Of a DNA stretch of 64,000 nt, positions 21,477 through 33,409 are shown piece by piece. The DNA is from Aggregatilinea lenta (GTDB lineage Bacteria; Chloroflexota; Anaerolineae; Aggregatilineales; Aggregatilineaceae). The position numbers and the translations under genes were made by a program. The stretch spans positions 2,356,001 to 2,420,000 of the forward strand of contig NZ_BFCB01000003.1 of assembly GCF_003569045.1 (NCBI RefSeq), written 5' to 3'. The stretch's first letter is position 1. Each line of letters opens with the position of its first letter. Under the pieces are notes generated by a model, which worked only from the letters and a program-made list of their open reading frames with translations, had not been told where the DNA came from and did not search any database.

Positions 21477-21917
21477 TCAGGCCGGGTCGAAGTCTGTCAG
21501 GAGCTTGAGCGTTACGCCTGCACTTACGGCAGCTTGAGCTTGTTTCTGATCAACCGTGACGAAGGGGTAGCCGGACTCAATCGCCAGTACGATAGGCACT
21601 GCATCGTAGATCGAGAGTGTGTGCTCCAACCCGATTTCTAACGCCTTCGGCAGCCGTGGGGCTGCGGGATGGATGCTTAACGGCAGCGCAAGAAGATTAC
21701 GCAGGGCGAGTTCCGCATCGGCCCGAGCCGTGCCGTAGAAGCGCACCTGCTTCCAGAGCACATTCGCACACTCGGCCAGCGCAAATTCAGGGACGTGGAT
21801 TTCATCCCTGTCATCCCTGGCAAGCGTTGCTATCAAGTTGAGCGCATGACTGGAAAGAGAGTCTTCGATGTAAGCCTGGATGAGAGCACTCGTGTCCACG
21901 ACCCAGTGATGGGTCAC
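21477..21917 (-). CDS. PIN-domain ribonuclease, VapC-type toxin
   Basis: A 146-residue PIN-domain protein. The four acidic residues expected of the active site are present: Asp8 (VVDTS), Glu49 (FALAEC), Asp105 (SIYDA) and Asp123 (VTVD). VapC toxins cleave tRNA or rRNA when released from their antitoxin. The start is a GTG that overlaps the upstream small gene by 4 bp (GTGA), the tight coupling usual for antitoxin-toxin pairs. Confidence 0.88.
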   Translation of the reverse strand: MTHHWVVDTSALIQAYIEDSLSSHALNLIATLARDDRDEIHVPEFALAECANVLWKQVRFYGTARADAELALRNLLALPLSIHPAAPRLPKALEIGLEHTLSIYDAVPIVLAIESGYPFVTVDQKQAQAAVSAGVTLKLLTDFDPA

Positions 21918-22132
21918 CGCTCACGATCCTGGCGCAGCAGATCGAGTGTGGAGGGTTGGTCCTGTTCGCGCTTGATGAGGCTCTTGCGCATCGACGCCAC
22001 AACTTCTTTGACGGTAGGCGCATCTGAGCGGCGCGCTTCTGGATCGATGCGTGCTTCACGCGCCTCGATCACGGCTTCGATCAACGCCTTAAGCTCGTCT
22101 ACGGTCAAATCACCAACTCGGTTGGTCGCCAT
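21914..22132 (-). CDS. Putative antitoxin partner of the PIN toxin
   Basis: A 72-residue, highly charged, helical protein directly upstream of the PIN gene and overlapping it by 4 bp. Its N-terminal part (LTVDELKALIEAVIEA) has the look of small antitoxins that neutralise PIN toxins, but no classic AbrB or RHH motif is evident. A TATACT at 22157-22162 on the minus strand may be its -10 and would lie at the end of the upstream gene. Confidence 0.75.
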   Translation of the reverse strand: MATNRVGDLTVDELKALIEAVIEAREARIDPEARRSDAPTVKEVVASMRKSLIKREQDQPSTLDLLRQDRER

Positions 22133-22167
22133 CACACGCTTCTCCGTTTTGCTCCAAGTATACTGCG

Positions 22168-24321
22168 CTACGGCTGGCAGGTCACACCCTGGCGGCGACC
22201 GACCGCGACAATCGCCGGGCGGTGGTCGGAGGCGTGGACCGCTTCGGGACTGTTGTCGATGATCGTGCCGACGGTGGGCAGATTGAACACCCACAGGTAG
22301 TCGTAGCGCGCGGAGGTGCCATCGACCAGCGAGAGCGTGGCGGCGCTTTCGGTGCGCAGCCCGGCGAATGGGTCCTGAATGGCCGGGTTTTCGAGTTCTT
22401 CCATGCGCAGCCGCTTGTACTGCGGCGAATCGGGGCCATAGTTGAACGTGCCGCCCAACAGAATGCGGTCGGTCCAGTTGGGGCCGTGCTCCTGCGCGAT
22501 CCACGCCAGCAGCGAGTCCATCTGCCGGTTCTGGTCCTGGTCCGCCTCGGCGATGACCGCACCGCTGCGCTCCGCGACGCGGAAGCTGAGCCACACGTTG
22601 TACAGGTGCAGCCCGCCGATGCCTGCCGCGTTCGGATCGTTCGCCAGCGCTTCAGGATCGAGGATGACGTGCATAGCGGCGGCCTGGTTGCCGTCGCTGG
22701 GCAGCAGCAGGCTTTCGGTGCTGTCGATCGGGACGCGGCTGAGCACGGCCAGCCCCTGCAGCGCCTCGTTTTGCGGGAAGAAGGTCGCTTCCATGTGCAG
22801 CCGCTGCGCCAGCCAGTACACCTGATCGACGCCGAAGCTCGCCATGCGGCCCGTCTCGATTTCCTGCAGCAGCACGACGTCCGCGCCATCCAGTTCGATC
22901 AGGTCCGCGACGCGCTCCAGGTTAGGGTCGAAGAACTGCGAATAGCCACCGTGGATGTTATAAGTTGCCACGCGGAAACAGTCGGCACTGACGGGGCGGC
23001 GCACGGCTTCAGGCGCGGCAATCGCTGCGCCGCCAACGCTGACGGCGATGACCATCACCAGGGTAAGCAGCGTCACCATCACCGGGCCGCCGCGCCAGGG
23101 GATGCGCCGCCGCGCGAGGATGATCGGGATCGACACCAGCAGCGCCGCGATCAGGGCGAGGGCGAGGCCCGTGCCCCGGAACGAGCGCAGGAACTCCGAG
23201 AGCTGGTCGTAGGGCGCGCTGAAGTCGCGCACGTAAGCGTAGTCGTAGCTGAAGTAGTCGCCCACGGCCAACCCGCCAAAGACCAGCGCGGCGAGGATGA
23301 CCATCAGGCCGGTCAGGTTGACACGGAACGTGCCGACCTGGATCAGCCACCACAGCGTCAGGCCGACCAGGAACTGCGCGAAGACCAGCGCGATCCCGGC
23401 GGGCAGCCCGTCGTAGCGGCGGCCCACCACCAGCAGCAGCGCCAGCAGCAGCGCCCACAGCCAGCCACGATAGACGCCGTCGAACATGCCCGCGAAGCGC
23501 CGCGCGAGGTCGCGCACTTCCGGCACGAGGGGCAAGGCGGTCGCGGCCAGCAGCCACGGCACGATGCTGGCGTAGCTGGTGTCCGACCAGCGCGCGATGA
23601 CGTTGGGCAGGCCGAGCACGGTAAATTCGAGGAACAGGGCCGCGCCGAGCGCGATGCCACCCCACAGGTTGAGCATGCCGCGCTGCGGGGGCGCGTCGCT
23701 TTCGGGCTTTGGCTCGCGTGCATCGACGGCCCACACGATCAGCGTGAGCACGATCAGCGCCAGCGACACCAGCGGAATGAGCAGATCCATTTGCAGATCG
23801 ACGCGGCCCGCGATGTCGAGCGTGTAGCCGCGCTGCCACGTGTGGTCGTAGGTGTCGCCCAGGATGCGCACGATCTGGTCGCCGGTGAAGCCGAGCAGCA
23901 GCACCGCCGGGAAATAGGATGGGCGGCGGATGATGATCAGGGCGAGGTAGAGCAGGCCCGCGCCGATGACCAGCGCCGCGCCCGGCACCTGAAGATCGGC
24001 GGTTTGCAGCGCCATCGAGCGGCCCAGCGCCACGAGCAGCACGGCCAGCGAAAAGCTGGCGCGCCAGCGGCTGATCAGCAGGGCGAGCAGCGGCAGCAGC
24101 AGCAAAATGCCCAGCGTCAGGACCTCAGTGCGGACCGTCGCGCTCTCCACGACGCCCGGTGCGTCGAGCAGGGCGGTGGGGTTGGTGGTGCGCCCGACGA
24201 GGTCGGCGCTGCTGGCGCGGGCGTACAGGGTCGCATAAACAAAGCGGACCGCCTGCACGAAGAACAGCCCAACGATCCCGGCTTCAAGCGAACGGAGCAG
24301 ATCCCGTCGGAGTTGCGACAT
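22168..24321 (-). CDS. Membrane protein with C-terminal endonuclease/exonuclease/phosphatase domain
   Basis: A 717-residue protein. The first 450 or so residues form about twelve transmembrane helices. The last 250 form an EEP-superfamily domain with ATYNIHGG (Asn), VVLLQEIET (Glu) and the terminal SDHRPAIVAV (Asp-His). The usual GDFN element reads GGTFN, so the Asp is replaced by Thr; this may weaken catalysis. Family members cleave phosphodiesters in nucleic acids or lipids. The ATG at 24321 is preferred over an upstream TTG. The domain should face one side of the membrane, probably outside. Confidence 0.75.
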   Translation of the reverse strand: MSQLRRDLLRSLEAGIVGLFFVQAVRFVYATLYARASSADLVGRTTNPTALLDAPGVVESATVRTEVLTLGILLLLPLLALLISRWRASFSLAVLLVALGRSMALQTADLQVPGAALVIGAGLLYLALIIIRRPSYFPAVLLLGFTGDQIVRILGDTYDHTWQRGYTLDIAGRVDLQMDLLIPLVSLALIVLTLIVWAVDAREPKPESDAPPQRGMLNLWGGIALGAALFLEFTVLGLPNVIARWSDTSYASIVPWLLAATALPLVPEVRDLARRFAGMFDGVYRGWLWALLLALLLVVGRRYDGLPAGIALVFAQFLVGLTLWWLIQVGTFRVNLTGLMVILAALVFGGLAVGDYFSYDYAYVRDFSAPYDQLSEFLRSFRGTGLALALIAALLVSIPIILARRRIPWRGGPVMVTLLTLVMVIAVSVGGAAIAAPEAVRRPVSADCFRVATYNIHGGYSQFFDPNLERVADLIELDGADVVLLQEIETGRMASFGVDQVYWLAQRLHMEATFFPQNEALQGLAVLSRVPIDSTESLLLPSDGNQAAAMHVILDPEALANDPNAAGIGGLHLYNVWLSFRVAERSGAVIAEADQDQNRQMDSLLAWIAQEHGPNWTDRILLGGTFNYGPDSPQYKRLRMEELENPAIQDPFAGLRTESAATLSLVDGTSARYDYLWVFNLPTVGTIIDNSPEAVHASDHRPAIVAVGRRQGVTCQP

Positions 24322-24553
24322 GGCTGCGGCTGCCTCTCTAGGTCGCGGCGCGGATACAACCAGACTTAACCAAATCAATCTAACTCAAAGTACGCGTATG
24401 ATTGTACGCAAACTTGGGCGACTTGCCAGCGCGGGTCCTTGGGGCCAGGATACGTTTCTCATGCGGCGATTCGCAACGGCCTTCACAATCGGCTGTCCCG
24501 CAGGACGGATCGGGCTATAATACGCGGAATTTTAATGAAAGGACGAGAGACTT

Positions 24554-26542
24554 ATGCCTCAAGTGGATACCCTGCTGGTCGGCGGTGTGGTGCTGACTAT
24601 GAACGGCGCGCTCGATCTCTATCGCGACGGCGCAGTGGCGATCAAAGGCGACCAGATCGTCGCGGTGGGGCCTGCCGGGCTGGTGCAGGCTGAGTATACG
24701 GCGGACGAGGTGATCGACTGCCGGGGCAAGATCGTCATGCCGGGGCTGGTCAACGCGCACACGCACGTGCCCATGACCCTGCTGCGCGCCATCGCGGACG
24801 ACCTGCGCCTGGACGTGTGGCTGATGGGCTACATGATGCCCACCGAGCGCGAGTTCGTGACGCCGGAGTTCTGCCGCCTGGGAACCAAGCTCGCGTGCGC
24901 GGAGATGATCCGGGGCGGCACGACGCTGTTCGCGGACATGTACTACTACGAGGCGGACGTGGCGGCGGCGACTGCCGAGGTCGGGCTGCGCGCGCTGTGC
25001 GGCGAATCGATCCTGAAGTTCCCCACGCCGGACGCCGACAGCTATGACGAGAGCCTCGCCTATACGCGGGAGTTTATCGAGCAGTGGAAGGGCCACCCGC
25101 TGATCGTGCCGTGCGTCGCGCCGCACGCACCGTACACCACCACCGACGAGATCCTGCGCGCCTGTGCGGATCTGGCCGTCGAGTATGACGTGCCGCTGCA
25201 AGTGCACCTGGCCGAAACGCGGCTGGAAGTGGACGAAAGCTGGGCGCAGTTCGAGAAGCGCGTGGTCACGCGCGTGGCGGACCTGGGCGTATTCAACGCC
25301 AAGACGCTGGCCGCTCACTGCGTGCACGTCGATTCGGAGGAGATCCGGCTGCTGCACAAGCACGGCGCATCCGTGGCGCACAACCCGTCGAGCAACCTCA
25401 AGCTGGCGAGCGGCATCGCGCCGGTGGTCGAGATGCTGGAACGCGGCGTGAAGGTCGCGGTGGGCACGGACGGCCCGGCCAGCAACAACGACCTGGATAT
25501 GTTCGAGGAAGTGCGGCTGGCGGCGCTGCTGGCGAAGGGCGCGACGTTCGACCCGACCGCGCTGCCCGCCAAGCAGGCGCTGTTGCTCGCCACCCGGCAG
25601 GGCGCGGAAGCGGTCTACATGGGCGACATCACCGGCAGCCTGGAACCCGGCAAGCGCGCCGACGTGATCGTGGTCGATCACGCGCCGCTGCACAACAGCC
25701 CGCACTTCGAGCGCGACCCGGACAGCGTGTACTCGCAGATCGTGTACGCCAGCCATTCGTCGGACGTGGAATCCGTGATGGTCAACGGGCGGTGGCTGAT
25801 GCGCGACCGGGTGCTGCTGACCGTGGACGAGGCCGCGATCCGGCAGGAAGCCGAAGTCGTGGCGCGGCAGATCGACCGCTTCCTGATCGCGCGCGAAGGC
25901 AACGTGGTCAATAAGCTGGTGGCGATCGGCGGCTTGCAGCAGGAAGAGAGCTTCGAGATCCAGGTCAAGGCGATGGTGGATGATGCCAGCCTGATCGAGC
26001 GGCTGCTGCAACACCCGGCGGTGCAGCTCGTCAAGCACAACCATTACCGCCAGTACGACACCTATTTCCTGTTCAACGGCGAGGAAGATGGCCGCGTGCG
26101 CTACCGCGAGGACGACTTCATCGACGAGCAGGGCAACGTGACGGCCAACGTCCGCACGCGCCTGACGTACACCATCCCCGAAAAGGCGCGCGAGTTCGAC
26201 GAGGCGGTGCTGCTGTCGCATTCGCGCTTCATCGCGCCCGCCGACCGTCCGCTGCGCTTCTACCGCGAGTACTTCCAGGCGCTCAAGGAGTGCGAGGTGC
26301 ACAAGGACCGCATGCGCTGGCACGTGCTGTACAAGGGCGTGCTGTTCTACGTGAACCTGGACCAGATGATTTTGCCGGAAGCGCCAGAGCGGTACATCGA
26401 GATCAAGTCGCGCACGTGGTCGCAGCGGGACGCGGAGTACAAGGCGGGCCTGACGAGCGAGATCCTGAACGACGTGCTGGGCATCCCCGCCGAGGCGCGG
26501 GTGCGCATGGAGTACGTGGACCTCTGCACGATGGGGGCGTAG
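24554..26542 (+). CDS. MtaD-like amidohydrolase fused to a CYTH-like domain
   Basis: A 662-residue fusion. Residues 1-445 are an amidohydrolase of the 5-methylthioadenosine/S-adenosylhomocysteine deaminase type: metal-binding NAHTHVP (69-71), VHLAET (His218), AHCVHVD and GTDGPASNNDLD (Asp306). Residues 466-645 resemble a CYTH/class IV adenylyl cyclase domain: FEIQVK at 467-472 (an ExQxK form of the ExExK motif), RVRYRED, RTRLTY and EIKSRTW at 616-622. MtaD alone is normally about 430 residues. A TATAAT lies at 24516-24521. Both parts are confident to moderate; the joint function is unknown. Confidence 0.85.
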   Translation: MPQVDTLLVGGVVLTMNGALDLYRDGAVAIKGDQIVAVGPAGLVQAEYTADEVIDCRGKIVMPGLVNAHTHVPMTLLRAIADDLRLDVWLMGYMMPTEREFVTPEFCRLGTKLACAEMIRGGTTLFADMYYYEADVAAATAEVGLRALCGESILKFPTPDADSYDESLAYTREFIEQWKGHPLIVPCVAPHAPYTTTDEILRACADLAVEYDVPLQVHLAETRLEVDESWAQFEKRVVTRVADLGVFNAKTLAAHCVHVDSEEIRLLHKHGASVAHNPSSNLKLASGIAPVVEMLERGVKVAVGTDGPASNNDLDMFEEVRLAALLAKGATFDPTALPAKQALLLATRQGAEAVYMGDITGSLEPGKRADVIVVDHAPLHNSPHFERDPDSVYSQIVYASHSSDVESVMVNGRWLMRDRVLLTVDEAAIRQEAEVVARQIDRFLIAREGNVVNKLVAIGGLQQEESFEIQVKAMVDDASLIERLLQHPAVQLVKHNHYRQYDTYFLFNGEEDGRVRYREDDFIDEQGNVTANVRTRLTYTIPEKAREFDEAVLLSHSRFIAPADRPLRFYREYFQALKECEVHKDRMRWHVLYKGVLFYVNLDQMILPEAPERYIEIKSRTWSQRDAEYKAGLTSEILNDVLGIPAEARVRMEYVDLCTMGA

Positions 26543-26575
26543 GGACGGCGAGTAGGGTACGGTTGCGGAACGAAA

Positions 26576-26612
26576 AGCCCGCCTGCGGGGACCTGTAGGC
26601 GGGCTGGCTTTT
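26576..26612 (+). terminator. Intrinsic terminator after the amidohydrolase gene
   Basis: An 11-bp stem (26576-26586 with 26595-26605, one G-T pair) is followed by GGCTTTTT, 34 bp after the stop codon. Confidence 0.88.
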
Positions 26613-27080
26613 TGCTTAGCCGATAGACAGATATAATTGTTGTCAACTTGTGTTATCCACATTAGTATGAATGGATGTGGGATATATGATTAGTCGAAGA
26701 ACTGCTCTCAAGTTGGGCGGATGTTATCAATCGAGTTTTAGCCGGCGCAGTAACAGCAGAACCTATTCGGAGACAATAGTAGACAGGAGTGGACTATACG
26801 ATTTTCTTTTTGAACGCGACTACGACGCTTGGTTTTGCAACAAGGCGTCAAAGTTATCATATGCGGAACTCAGTAGTCGAGTAGTTAAAGAGTTTATAAT
26901 GAAGCTTCATACGGGTGAAACCGTTCTGGATGTAACTCCAGATTGGACGTGGGAGCAGAGATCTCAACTCGGACAGAGGTACCTCAAGGATTTATCTCTA
27001 GATATGCTTAAACATAAAAAGAATGAGTTACATAAGGAGCCATTCAAAGATCTCCTGAGTTGTCTTGAACTTGATGGCTA

Positions 27081-27086
27081 TAGCTA
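27081..27086. repeat. Target-site duplication, left copy
   Basis: TAGCTA at 27081-27086 is repeated directly at 28080-28085, flanking the insertion sequence. Removing the element and one copy restores a single reading frame. Confidence 0.92.
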
Positions 27087-28079
27087 ACCCGATGTACAGG
27101 TTTATGGACTGACAAAAAAAGGAGCTGCTTGTAGGATCTGAGGTAGCTGACACCAAAAATCCGACCAAGGAGCTCCAAGATGGATCATATCACGTTTATG
27201 GTCACGATCTTCTGCTACATTGACGACTGGCTCAAGACGCAGCCGCGCGTGCGACAGCGCGGACCGCAGCCGATCCTGGCCGACAGCGAAGTGCTGACGA
27301 TGGAAATCGTCGGCGAATACCTGAGCATCGATACGGACCACGCGATCTATCAGCATTTCTGTCGCCACTATAGTGAGTGGTTTCCAAAGCTGCGGCAGGT
27401 AGACCGGGTCACATTTGTGCGTCAAGCGGCGAATCTGTGGCGGGTCAAAGAGCGACTGTGGCAGCATCTGCTGACGCAGGTGGCATTTGACCCGGCGCTG
27501 TCGGTGGTGGACAGCTTTCCCCTGCCGGTGTGCCGTTTTGGGCGCGCGTACCGCTGCCGACGACTGCGCGAGTGGTCGGCATGGGGCTACGACGATGTGG
27601 CCAAGCAGCGTTTCTTCGGGATGCGGGTGCATGTCCGCATCTGCTGGCCCGGCGTGATTGTGGGACTGGCCGTCTTTCCTGCCGATGTGCATGACCGCTG
27701 GGCGGCTGAAGACCTGCTCGCCAACGCCCACGGCTGGGTCCTGGGGGATACCAACTACTGGAGCCCGATGCTGCGTGACGATCTGGTCCGGCAAGGCGCT
27801 TGCCTGCTCGCCCCGCGCAAAACATCGGTCAAGCGTGACCATCGTCCCTGGCCGCGCTGGCTGACCCAGACCCGCCGCCGTGTCGAAACCGTCATCGGCC
27901 AATTGGTCGAGCGCTTTCAAGGCAAGCGTGTCTGGGCCCGTGATCCCTGGCATTTGTGTTCGCGCTGGTTGCGCAAGCTGCTCAGTCATACGTTTGCGGT
28001 TTTCCTGGCTCAGCAGGCTGGCTTGGCGTCGCCGCTCCAGTTCGCTGCCCTTCTGTCCGATTAAACTTGTACATCGGGT
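27087..28079 (+). mobile_element. Complete IS982-family insertion sequence, 993 bp
   Basis: Bounded by terminal inverted repeats: ACCCGATGTACA at 27087-27098 and its complement at 28068-28079, continuing with one mismatch to about 18 bp (GTTTA). It is flanked by 6-bp direct repeats TAGCTA. One intact transposase gene fills most of it. The ACCC ends, the length near 1 kb and the transposase type fit IS982. The intact ends, target duplication and open frame suggest a recent insertion. Confidence 0.93.
27180..28064 (+). CDS. IS982-family DDE transposase
   Basis: An intact 294-residue transposase that cuts and re-joins the element's ends. The N-terminal PILADSEVLTMEIVGEYL and RQAANLWRVKERLW are hallmarks of the IS982 family. 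Likely catalytic acids are the Asp in VVDSFPLPVC, the Asp in VLGDTNYW and the Glu in ETVIGQLVERF. GGAGCTCC precedes the ATG by a few bases. The stop is 15 bp from the right end of the element. GC-rich, unlike the gene it interrupts. Confidence 0.94.
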   Translation: MDHITFMVTIFCYIDDWLKTQPRVRQRGPQPILADSEVLTMEIVGEYLSIDTDHAIYQHFCRHYSEWFPKLRQVDRVTFVRQAANLWRVKERLWQHLLTQVAFDPALSVVDSFPLPVCRFGRAYRCRRLREWSAWGYDDVAKQRFFGMRVHVRICWPGVIVGLAVFPADVHDRWAAEDLLANAHGWVLGDTNYWSPMLRDDLVRQGACLLAPRKTSVKRDHRPWPRWLTQTRRRVETVIGQLVERFQGKRVWARDPWHLCSRWLRKLLSHTFAVFLAQQAGLASPLQFAALLSD

Positions 28080-30750: not shown

Positions 30751-32613
30751 ATGATGGGTCGTCTTATTGCCGCCGCCGTGATCACCACGGCGCTCCTGTT
30801 CGCTATCTATCTGCCCGTTATTTCTGCACAAGGAGACTGTCCCGGCGCGCCGCCCAACTACCTTTCCGTAGGCATGACCGCCTGGGTGATGGCGGGCCAG
30901 CAGCCCAACAACGTCCGGTCCGGGGCGGGGGCGGGCTATGGCGTCGTGACCAAAGTGTACGCGTCGCAGCCGTTCTCGATCATCGACGGGCCAGTGTGCG
31001 CGGACGGCTACCGCTGGTGGCTGATCCGCGACCAGAGCGGAATGCAGGGATGGACCGCCGACGGGACCGGGGGCCAGCGCTGGCTCGAAGGCAGCAGCGC
31101 CCCTGGCGGCGCGGTCCCGACACCCGCGCCAGTTCCAACGACCGCACCGGTGCCAACGACCGCGCCTGCGCAGCCTGTCGCACAACAGGGCGCGCTGCGG
31201 GTGATCAACGAATCGTCCACGAACGTATGCGGCGTCTACGTGTTCGGTCCCGGTTACGCCGGACCGACGAATGTTCTGCCGTCATCGAGCCAACCTATTT
31301 GGCCGGGCGGGACGTCGCCGGACATGACGGTGTGGGGCGGCACGTATGATATCGAGCTGCGCGACTGCGCCTCGCCGGGCGGCTACCTGACGAACTTCGA
31401 CGACGCGCTGATCCCGGTGGGGCAGGTAACCACGATCACCTTCCGCGCGGCGATGCTGCCCAGCGCGCCGGAGGCGGTGCCCGGCTACTTCACCGTCAGC
31501 AACGAGTCCTCGACACCGATCTGCGGCGTGTACGCGACGCTGTCCGGCATGACCGAGCGGTCGCAGACAAATTTGCTCGGCGGGCAAACGCTCAGCCCGG
31601 GCGGGATGTCCAGCTCGCTCGAAGTCGAGTCGGGAAGTTACTGGGACGTCGATATCCGCGACTGCAACCAGGTCACGGTGGGGCAGTACACGGGGCAGTA
31701 CGTCGCCCCGAATACGGCGGTGGTACTGTACGTATTTGATCCTGAGCCGGTGATCAATGATGCGGACGGCGATGGCCTCTCGGACGAGGACGAGCTGTGG
31801 CTGGCCCAGACGTTCAATCCCTACTACATCTTCGACGAGAACGAGTCCGTGAATGTCTACAACGACGTAGTGATGTTGTATCAGGTCTCGTCCACGCCGG
31901 ATATTCCCGGCTGTACGGCGCTGCTGACGTACATCCCGCACTTCCCCGAAGACGCCGGTGACGAGGCCGACCTGGGGTTTGGCTATCATGTGGGCGACAA
32001 TGAAGCGGTGCGCGTGTGCGCCGTGCACGATACGGCCCGGCAAACATGGTGGGCCTACAGCATCGTGATCCACCGTCACTTTGACGCGCCCGCCGGATAC
32101 GTGCGGAACGGGGAGTACATGTTCTCCGGTATTACGCACGGGATCAGTATCGATACGATTTACTTCCGCGATGGCGAGCACATCATCCTGTACGTGAGCA
32201 AGGACAAGCACGCCGCCTATCCGACGTCCGAAGAGTGTGAGGCATACCATACCGTTCCCGGCGCGCCGGACGCCTGGGACTTTGAGGACTGTGGCGGCGG
32301 CGCCCAAATGTACCTGGAAGTGCGCCCGGAATTGAACGTCGGCGAGCGGAACGATCCTGCGTTCAACTGGGGCAGCGAATCGGGCAACAGCTTCCTGATG
32401 TCGCGCTGGCCGGACGAGTGTTTCTGGTGCGCGCAGGACTTCTGCGCCGGGGTGGTGAGCAATACCTGCGCGGGGTCGACTGGCGGCAAGTGGTGGCCGA
32501 CCTACGACTATGACACCGGGTCGGTCAATTTCCAGCAAAACAGCACGATCATCTCGCAGGTGCTGTGTGGCAGCCAGTACCAGGACGTGGCCCCAGAGTT
32601 CTGTCCGGCCTAG
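30751..32613 (+). CDS. Secreted SH3-domain protein with repeated beta domains
   Basis: A 620-residue exported protein. An N-terminal signal sequence (about residues 3-27) is followed by an SH3-like domain (about 40-110; NNVRSGAGAGYGVVTKVY ... WWLIRDQSGMQGWT), a Pro/Thr linker, two copies of a Cys-containing beta domain (NESSTNVCGVYVFG and NESSTPICGVYATL), a DADGDGLSDEDELW calcium-like motif, and a C-terminal 250-residue domain resembling Vps62-type proteins. GGGGGAAAAT lies directly before the ATG. Cysteine-rich, so probably disulfide-bonded. Function unknown. Confidence 0.8.
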   Translation: MMGRLIAAAVITTALLFAIYLPVISAQGDCPGAPPNYLSVGMTAWVMAGQQPNNVRSGAGAGYGVVTKVYASQPFSIIDGPVCADGYRWWLIRDQSGMQGWTADGTGGQRWLEGSSAPGGAVPTPAPVPTTAPVPTTAPAQPVAQQGALRVINESSTNVCGVYVFGPGYAGPTNVLPSSSQPIWPGGTSPDMTVWGGTYDIELRDCASPGGYLTNFDDALIPVGQVTTITFRAAMLPSAPEAVPGYFTVSNESSTPICGVYATLSGMTERSQTNLLGGQTLSPGGMSSSLEVESGSYWDVDIRDCNQVTVGQYTGQYVAPNTAVVLYVFDPEPVINDADGDGLSDEDELWLAQTFNPYYIFDENESVNVYNDVVMLYQVSSTPDIPGCTALLTYIPHFPEDAGDEADLGFGYHVGDNEAVRVCAVHDTARQTWWAYSIVIHRHFDAPAGYVRNGEYMFSGITHGISIDTIYFRDGEHIILYVSKDKHAAYPTSEECEAYHTVPGAPDAWDFEDCGGGAQMYLEVRPELNVGERNDPAFNWGSESGNSFLMSRWPDECFWCAQDFCAGVVSNTCAGSTGGKWWPTYDYDTGSVNFQQNSTIISQVLCGSQYQDVAPEFCPA

Positions 32614-32709: not shown

Positions 32710-33369
32710 TTAGCCCTGTTCCAGGCGGAAGCCGTGGCCGCGCACGGTGACGATGTACTGGTGCGCGGGGTCCACTTCGGCCAGACGGTCGCGCAGGCGG
32801 CGCACCAAGGCGTCGATGGCCTGCTCGCTGACGCCTTCACCGACCGCGTCCGGCCAGACGGCTTCGATCACTTCGTCGCGCGTGCGAACCGCGCCCGCGC
32901 CGTCGTAGAGCAGCTCCAGCAGGCGGTACTGCGGCAGGCTCAACGGCGGATCGACTTCCACGCGGTCGATGAAGACGCGCCGCGAGTCGCGGTTGAGCTG
33001 GAGGCGTCCCAGGACGCCGGGCAGCTCGTCCACCATCAGTGGGGCGGTGGCTTCTGAGCCGACAAAGGTAATTTTTACGGCCAGCGCGATCTGGACCTCG
33101 TCGCCGTCGCGCAGGGGCACGGTGGTCGCCTTGACCTGCTTGCCATTGACCCACGTGCCGTTCTTGCTGTCGAGGTCTTCAAGGTAATAACTGTTGTCGG
33201 TGCCGCGATAGATGCGGATGTGCTCGCGCGAGACCTGGCGCTCTGGCAGCACGAGGTCGCACTCGCCGCCGCGCCCGATCACAATCTGGTCGTCGCGGAC
33301 GGTCCAGCGAGTCCCGGCCTTCTCCCCTTCGTGGATAATGAGGACAGGTTTATCTGCTCCATTTGGCAT
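32710..33369 (-). CDS. FHA domain-winged helix transcriptional regulator
   Basis: A 219-residue protein. Residues about 10-95 form an FHA domain (IGRGGECDLVLPERQVSREH and DLDSKNGTWVNG) that reads phosphothreonine. Residues about 125-219 form an OmpR-type winged helix (LPQYRLLELLYDGAGAVRTR, then RLRDRL and the wing VRGHGF), without a receiver domain. The ATG at 33369 has GGAAG six bases before it. It is divergent from a Ser/Thr kinase 107 bp away, with promoters for both in between. This suggests a kinase-controlled transcription factor. Confidence 0.9.
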   Translation of the reverse strand: MPNGADKPVLIIHEGEKAGTRWTVRDDQIVIGRGGECDLVLPERQVSREHIRIYRGTDNSYYLEDLDSKNGTWVNGKQVKATTVPLRDGDEVQIALAVKITFVGSEATAPLMVDELPGVLGRLQLNRDSRRVFIDRVEVDPPLSLPQYRLLELLYDGAGAVRTRDEVIEAVWPDAVGEGVSEQAIDALVRRLRDRLAEVDPAHQYIVTVRGHGFRLEQG

Positions 33370-33380
33370 GGCACACTTCC

Positions 33381-33409
33381 TTGACATTTTGCATGCGCCG
33401 GGCTATGGT
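33381..33409 (+). promoter_or_regulatory. Promoter of the Ser/Thr kinase gene
   Basis: A perfect TTGACA (33381-33386) and TATGGT (33404-33409) are 17 bp apart. It overlaps the upstream region of the FHA regulator on the other strand. Confidence 0.75.

Follow-up and report, generated by a model that had tools for sequence, protein, structure and literature searches.

Why should a nucleoside-type amidohydrolase and a triphosphate tunnel domain share one polypeptide? The question is raised by a frame in the 64,000-nucleotide stretch of DNA analysed here (the window), part of the genome of Aggregatilinea lenta (6,202,555 bases in five contigs). The frame runs from ATG to stop without an internal stop and encodes both domains (Table 1). 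A preliminary description had proposed an amidohydrolase and a CYTH-like domain in one protein, and this pairing was confirmed by profile comparison, by a fold model, and by conservation of the fusion in relatives. On the reverse strand, a long open frame (24515-26662) overlaps the fused gene.

Table 1. Coordinates in the window of the fused gene, its domains, and its conserved motifs. Counts refer to the collected sequences.
Feature	Position	Strand	Basis or conservation
Whole fused gene	24554..26542	+	662 aa plus stop; architecture common to the collected set of 98 sequences
Amidohydrolase domain, residues 1-441	24554..25876	+	Pfam PF01979, NCBIfam PRK09045, PDB 4f0r
H69-x-H71	24758..24766	+	H in 94/94 ungapped rows
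H218 and E221 (HxxE)	25205..25216	+	95/95 ungapped rows
H255	25316..25318	+	96/96 ungapped rows
D306 (GTDG)	25469..25471	+	96/96 ungapped rows
Junction, residues 415-467, length nearly fixed	25796..25954	+	W414-E468 spacing
CYTH / triphosphate tunnel domain, residues 446-662 (predicted)	25889..26539	+	AlphaFold2, 2een_A match, hhalign
Strand-1 motif E468-x-Q470-x-K472 (usual ExExK)	25955..25969	+	E 97/97, Q 97/97, K 98/98
Basic tunnel strand R514-x-R516-x-R518-E519-D520	26093..26113	+	R516, R518, D520 98/98; E519 97/98; R514 88/98
Conserved block R568-F-Y-R-E-Y-F574	26255..26275	+	R568, F569, Y570, E572, Y573 98/98; R571 92/98; F574 97/98
Basic tunnel strand K584-x-R586-x-R588	26303..26317	+	each 98/98
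Strand-8 motif E616-x-K618-x-R620-T-W622 (usual ExE)	26399..26419	+	E616, K618, R620, W622 98/98; T621 97/98

The two domains might have been joined artificially, by a frame error or a chimeric assembly. The set of 98 sequences comprises the window copy, eight loci found by scanning named genomes, and 89 copies that come from 88 further genomes. Both ends of the frame lie inside the available stretch in 92 of these, and all 92 are fused, with both domains in the same joined frame; the other six touch an edge, and the rows gapped over the amidohydrolase are only copies cut in this way. Two such copies, L092 (a 186-residue frame with the CYTH part only) and L109 (a 347-residue frame with a partial amidohydrolase), are not to be taken for free-standing domains. 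W414 and E468 lie 54 residues apart in 94 of the 97 sequences in which the spacing could be measured and 55 apart in the remaining three. This constant junction and the recurrence of the continuous frame argue against an artefact, for which the chance appears negligible and which we regard as ruled out.

How widespread the fusion is, a question posed with the preliminary description, was addressed by a survey of 400 Chloroflexota genomes. The tunnel domain was found in 89 of them, as a single copy except in one genome with two. Within the window's class, Anaerolineae, 50 of the 55 listed genomes were positive, and the other 39 belong to five families outside the class; the scan of named genomes, which used a single-protein query reaching close relatives only, returned eight loci, all in Chloroflexi. 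When the amidohydrolase half alone was searched at E 1e-90, 41 of 201 genomes matched, and 39 of the matches lay inside a fused frame. G142 carries its amidohydrolase match in a 415-residue frame on a different contig from its tunnel domain, and G019 has an unfused relative at 38% identity. The pairwise identities of the two halves correlate strongly (r 0.94 over 4,465 pairs), as expected of any co-inherited domains. Taken across the collected sequences, the fusion is evidently old and stable. Candidates for further fusions among low-scoring CYTH proteins of 570-660 residues were rejected in eight genomes by their CHAD domain (G010, G027, G037, G049, G051, G060, G109, G115); that of G031 appears, by eye, to be a short CYTH domain behind a spurious frame. 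A 697-residue frame in G058 (L185) was used only in the motif control described below.

The amidohydrolase half is readily placed at the level of the superfamily. Pfam Amidohydro_1 (PF01979) matches residues 60-414 with E 2.4e-73 (247.8 bits for the whole protein, against a cut-off of 25), and the HxH, HxxE, H, and D ligands of the superfamily are all present. The closest NCBIfam model is the TRZ/ATZ hydrolase PRK09045, at 469.7 bits against a cut-off of 540; matches were also obtained to PRK06038 (415.8 against 609), the 5'-deoxyadenosine deaminase PRK07228 (353.3 against 522), and the MTA/SAH deaminase PRK15493 (323.3 against 779), and PRK08393, likewise among the nearest families, scored below its own cut-off. 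Each of the 25 NCBIfam families listed scored under its curated cut-off, those of MTA, SAH, or 5'-deoxyadenosine deaminases included. The closest solved structure is PDB 4f0r, named as a methylthioadenosine/SAH deaminase (E 8.3e-100). The likeness to 4f0r, 4dyk, and TM0936 (1p1m), all MTA/SAH deaminases, covers the full-length amidohydrolase domain, whereas their chains of 406-451 residues have no space for the extra domain of the fused protein. The nearest relatives thus appear to be MTA, SAH, and 5'-deoxyadenosine deaminases, a kinship that falls short of proven membership. H69, H71, H218, and D306 are presumably metal ligands, and E221 is, we assume, the catalytic glutamate. Because these five residues and H255 are invariant in the ungapped sequences, a working deaminase-type active site is likely. 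The A. lenta genome encodes two more relatives (L010 and L011, 36% identity), neither with a CYTH match.

The C-terminal half was less readily recognized by profile. Pfam CYTH (PF01928) aligned to residues 468-624 with 19.1 bits in the whole protein and 22.4 in the domain alone, against a cut-off of 23.2; among 27 fused copies from 121 genomes, 12 matched at E 0.001 and eight exceeded the cut-off, at up to 31.1 bits. Searches of PDB sequences gave no match up to E 1 with the 98-row domain profile, and five matches with unrelated names, the best at E 0.62, with the single domain. AlphaFold2, given nine sequences of the domain alone, predicted an eight-stranded tunnel (pLDDT 85.0, pTM 0.82). Its best solved match is the archaeal CYTH protein PH1819 (2een_A; Z 18.0, rmsd 2.3 over 170 residues), followed by class IV cyclases, SaTTM, thiamine triphosphatase, and ygiF. 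By hhalign, the profile of the 98-sequence family matched 25 Chloroflexota CYTH domains with a probability of 97.4% (E 4.7e-11) and 10 Chloroflexota VTC domains with 0.2%, whereas in a control the VTC profile found the CYTH profile at 96.3%; membership in the VTC family was rejected on this comparison. We regard the predicted tunnel fold of residues 446-662, and their place in the CYTH superfamily, as settled. Of the two outcomes that would have refuted the preliminary description, a fold unlike a tunnel and a frame error, neither was borne out.

The sequence of the tunnel departs from that of its relatives at defined places. According to PMC4641920 and PMC8233210, CYTH proteins are marked by two motifs, ExExK (strand 1) and ExE (strand 8), the second of which serves to define tripolyphosphatase and thiamine triphosphatase TTMs (PMC8233210). 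The fused sequences have ExQxK in place of the first motif (97 of 97) and ExK in place of the second (98 of 98). As a control, a CYTH profile was made from 25 members of a set of 40 other Chloroflexota CYTH loci (31 + 9), and the whole set was aligned to it; 39 loci matched, the exception being L187 with no match at E 1e-5, and all 39 keep Glu at both the Q470 and the K618 places. The motifs named in the preliminary description are present, as E468-I-Q-V-K472, R514-V-R-Y-R-E-D520, R534-T-R-L-T-Y, and E616-I-K-S-R-T-W622; its view of the fold and the pairing stands, whereas its reading of ExQxK and EIKSRTW as ordinary CYTH features does not, both being departures from CYTH. Beyond the motifs of Table 1, D502, Y504, R558, N601, and D603 are each conserved in 98 of 98 sequences. 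Across 95 sequences, 28 of 210 domain columns are invariant, among them 11 Arg or Lys and eight Asp or Glu, in a set that includes close kin (six pairs at least 98% alike in the domain) and in which domain identities reach down to 35%. Because so many columns are invariant, 11 of them basic, the remodelled tunnel is to all appearance conserved and not decaying.

Two assignments within the superfamily were rejected. The W/YxRxR motif of thiamine triphosphatases is absent, position 514 being Arg in 88 of 98 sequences and Trp and Tyr in one each. A class IV cyclase, as suggested at the outset, is made unlikely by the absence of the HFxxxxExExK motif (His in 2 of 98 at position 462, Phe in 0 of 98 at position 463), and a class IV adenylyl cyclase was rejected on this ground; nor does the family show the small residue at the first Arg or the Ala in ExE that mark these cyclases, R516 and K618 each being present in 98 of 98.

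Published structures give the replaced positions a meaning. In ygiF, metal site 1 is formed by Glu-160 and site 2 by Glu-4, Glu-6, and Glu-162, as described in PMC4641920. The first Glu of ExE binds metal 1 together with the substrate, and in tripolyphosphatases the attacking water is placed near metal 2, which activates it (PMC4641920 and PMC8233210). Hydrolysis is impaired when Glu-6 is changed in ygiF, or when Glu-2 or Glu-4 is changed in AtTTM3 (PMC4641920). In our correspondence, which was drawn from sequence profiles and covers the three site-2 glutamates without the fourth Glu of the acidic patch (Glu-90 of AtTTM3), Glu-160 of ygiF equates to E616, and Glu-4, Glu-6, and Glu-162 equate to E468, Q470, and K618. 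The replacements at Q470 and K618 would thus take away two of the three glutamates, and so the greater part, of the catalytic metal site 2 described in the literature, and the Glu of metal site 1 appears to be kept.

The pairing itself also differs from known arrangements. The known partners of CYTH domains, where these do not stand alone, are CHAD, nucleotidyl kinase, HD, and exopolyphosphatase domains (PMC8233210). The open-access literature that we searched holds no description of a CYTH-amidohydrolase pair, in agreement with the preliminary description, which knew of none; a domain database may nevertheless list it, especially for members that exceed the Pfam cut-off. Among the structural relatives, the archaeal SaTTM (7ns9) shares the eight-stranded tunnel (Z 15.8, rmsd 2.6, 166 aligned) and is a tripolyphosphatase with ExE at E135/E137 (PMC8233210), in contrast to the ExQxK and ExK of the fused protein. 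Escherichia coli YgiF (Z 14.0, rmsd 3.0, 173 aligned) is likewise a two-domain CYTH protein, and its site-1 Glu has its counterpart here; however, its CYTH domain precedes its CHAD domain and it is active as a tripolyphosphatase, whereas the fused protein has CYTH last and appears to have lost most of site 2. Arabidopsis TTM1 and TTM2 (fold match to 7z67: Z 15.1, rmsd 4.4, 178 aligned) resemble it in joining CYTH to another enzyme domain and in the loss of ExExK and ExE, but their partner is a kinase and, according to PMC8233210, their group is found in Viridiplantae and Amoebozoa. They differ also at the W/Y of W/YxRxR, which is mostly Arg in the fused family.

We examined gene neighbours for indications of function at 92 loci, that is, the 98 minus six (including the window) at which the target ORF was missed by our gene finder; this finder is crude, and ORFs outside the families named here are unreliable. 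The neighbours vary by lineage. At 25 loci the fusion has a CinA-like gene upstream in the same orientation, and GlgA-like and MalQ-like genes are neighbours at eight loci each. A CoaE-like gene is nearby at 20 loci; at 19 it is the next ORF on the same strand, and by our own gene calls it overlaps or lies at most seven bases away in 14 of these. For each of the four families one representative was confirmed by Pfam, that for CoaE at L115. At L107, L108, L111, L115, L117, L119, L120, L121, L127, L128, L130, and others, the fused gene ends just inside or almost at the beginning of this dephospho-CoA kinase-like gene, a spacing that looks as if the two genes were translationally coupled. No pathway is named by the genes beside the fusion at the 92 loci.

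Salvage genes elsewhere in the genomes were similarly unselective. The SAH hydrolase family is present in 197 of 201 genomes, MTA phosphorylase in 187 (162 over the cut-off), and MtnA in 152 (139 over the cut-off). These families occur with or without the fusion, and the 201 genomes gave no clear pattern of replacement. Since SAH hydrolase and MTA phosphorylase are found in most genomes either way, neither substrate is singled out; the presence of SAH hydrolase in all 40 fusion genomes among the 201 makes a need for SAH deamination doubtful. MtnA went unmatched in four of the fusion genomes, G046, G064, G144, and G160; in all of these but G144, MTAP was matched only weakly (E 1e-14 to 1e-17). 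In one lineage (L097, L098, L102, L105, L106, L122), the other strand carries an IF-2B/MtnA-like gene at a position three genes upstream of the fusion; the IF-2B/MtnA-like gene in G034 and G102 falls below the MtnA cut-off.

Several other features of the surroundings were recorded. In the window, the ORF that follows the fused gene (26671-27087) has no Pfam match and precedes a DDE transposase (27180-28064, forward strand); the transposase lies before a gene for a protein with FHA and Trans_reg_C domains (32710-33387, reverse strand), of a kind that adjoins the fusion in some relatives. Members of a cluster of similar-looking FHA-type proteins are encoded within two genes of the fusion at seven of the 92 loci, adjacent at L002, L005, L061, L077, and L081 and two genes off at L004 and L074. 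On the other side, a 736-residue protein (22168-24378, reverse strand) has an N-terminal part that looks membrane-spanning by eye and a C-terminal endonuclease/exonuclease/phosphatase domain that also matches a PGAP2IP nuclease-like model. A PIN-domain protein (21477-22150, reverse strand) comes after a short ORF that has no Pfam match, in the layout of a VapBC-like toxin-antitoxin pair. Elsewhere in the same genome, a 310-residue open frame (L134; G000 contig 2, about 31508-32116) encodes a VTC-family protein of the polyphosphate polymerase type.

The reading that we favour, with a probability of roughly 45%, is that the protein is an adenosine-type deaminase whose attached tunnel is a binding site for a triphosphate-type ligand, which it does not hydrolyse in the standard way, and regulates the deaminase or docks its substrate. 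The N-terminal half would carry out metal-dependent deamination of an adenosine-type nucleoside, such as 5'-methylthioadenosine, 5'-deoxyadenosine, or a relative. The C-terminal tunnel would stay permanently attached to it and would hold a triphosphate-type anion (PPPi, short polyphosphate, or a nucleotide tail) with one metal ion. This ligand would not be hydrolysed in the standard way, and the ligand-bound tunnel would regulate the deaminase or dock a phosphorylated substrate. Binding of triphosphate or polyphosphate is plausible because the basic walls of the tunnel and the metal-site-1 Glu are retained; standard hydrolysis is not expected because two of the three site-2 glutamates are missing, an expectation drawn by analogy from published structures. 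The near-constant junction fits a rigid placement of the two domains, and so physical coupling, although a full-length model was of too low confidence (pLDDT 51.3, pTM 0.39) to reveal a tunnel-deaminase interface. The ligand, the deaminase substrate, and the regulatory or docking role are what we infer, the last being the most economical use for such a tunnel.

The best rival to this reading holds that both halves are active enzymes, the tunnel cleaving a phosphate compound (PPPi or PPi) through an alternative chemistry in which Q470 and K618 take part. A second activity would fit the strict conservation of the tunnel, and it has precedents: pyrophosphate is still cleaved by AtTTM1/2, which lack ExExK and ExE, and in class IV cyclases, which are active, the second Glu of ExE is replaced by Ala (PMC8233210), so partial loss of site 2 is no proof of inactivity. 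Nevertheless, two of the three site-2 glutamates are replaced, one of them by Lys, in every sequence, and changes at these places impair known tripolyphosphatases, and we think a second activity unlikely. Alternatively, the tunnel could be purely structural or serve oligomerization. The Mediator subunits Med18/20 have this fold, are not known to be catalytic, and are represented among our fold matches, and a near-fixed junction would suit a scaffold; however, the 11 basic and eight acidic residues among the invariant columns are more than a scaffold should need, which leaves this role with a rather small chance. Smaller still is that of a polyphosphate-synthesizing or -holding module like Vtc4. 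K618 stands at the place of an acidic-patch Glu, as do basic residues in Vtc4p, which has metal site 1 without site 2 (PMC4641920), and Chloroflexota VTC domains have ExK on strand 8. Against this, the VTC profile, which readily finds CYTH, does not match the fused tunnel, E468 and a CYTH-like DxY are kept, and A. lenta has a separate true VTC protein; that no Vtc4 entry is among the best 50 solved fold matches listed is uninformative either way.

We therefore return to the deaminase with a ligand-binding tunnel, for which the invariant replacement of the cutting site suggests a built-in sensor or docking site. A more specific version, which we consider doubtful, is that a CYTH enzyme has evolved into a receptor that binds triphosphate or polyphosphate without hydrolysing it and that sets the activity of the deaminase; this would be a fixed link, across much of Chloroflexota, between the phosphate or energy state of the cell and the disposal of adenosine-type by-products of SAM metabolism. 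The fusion adds a nucleoside-type amidohydrolase to the partners of CYTH and a new, strictly conserved form of the domain in which Gln and Lys have taken the place of catalytic acids. Should the tunnel prove to be a receptor, it would offer a direct example of a triphosphatase fold converted to sensing, and the small anion that it reads would become testable.
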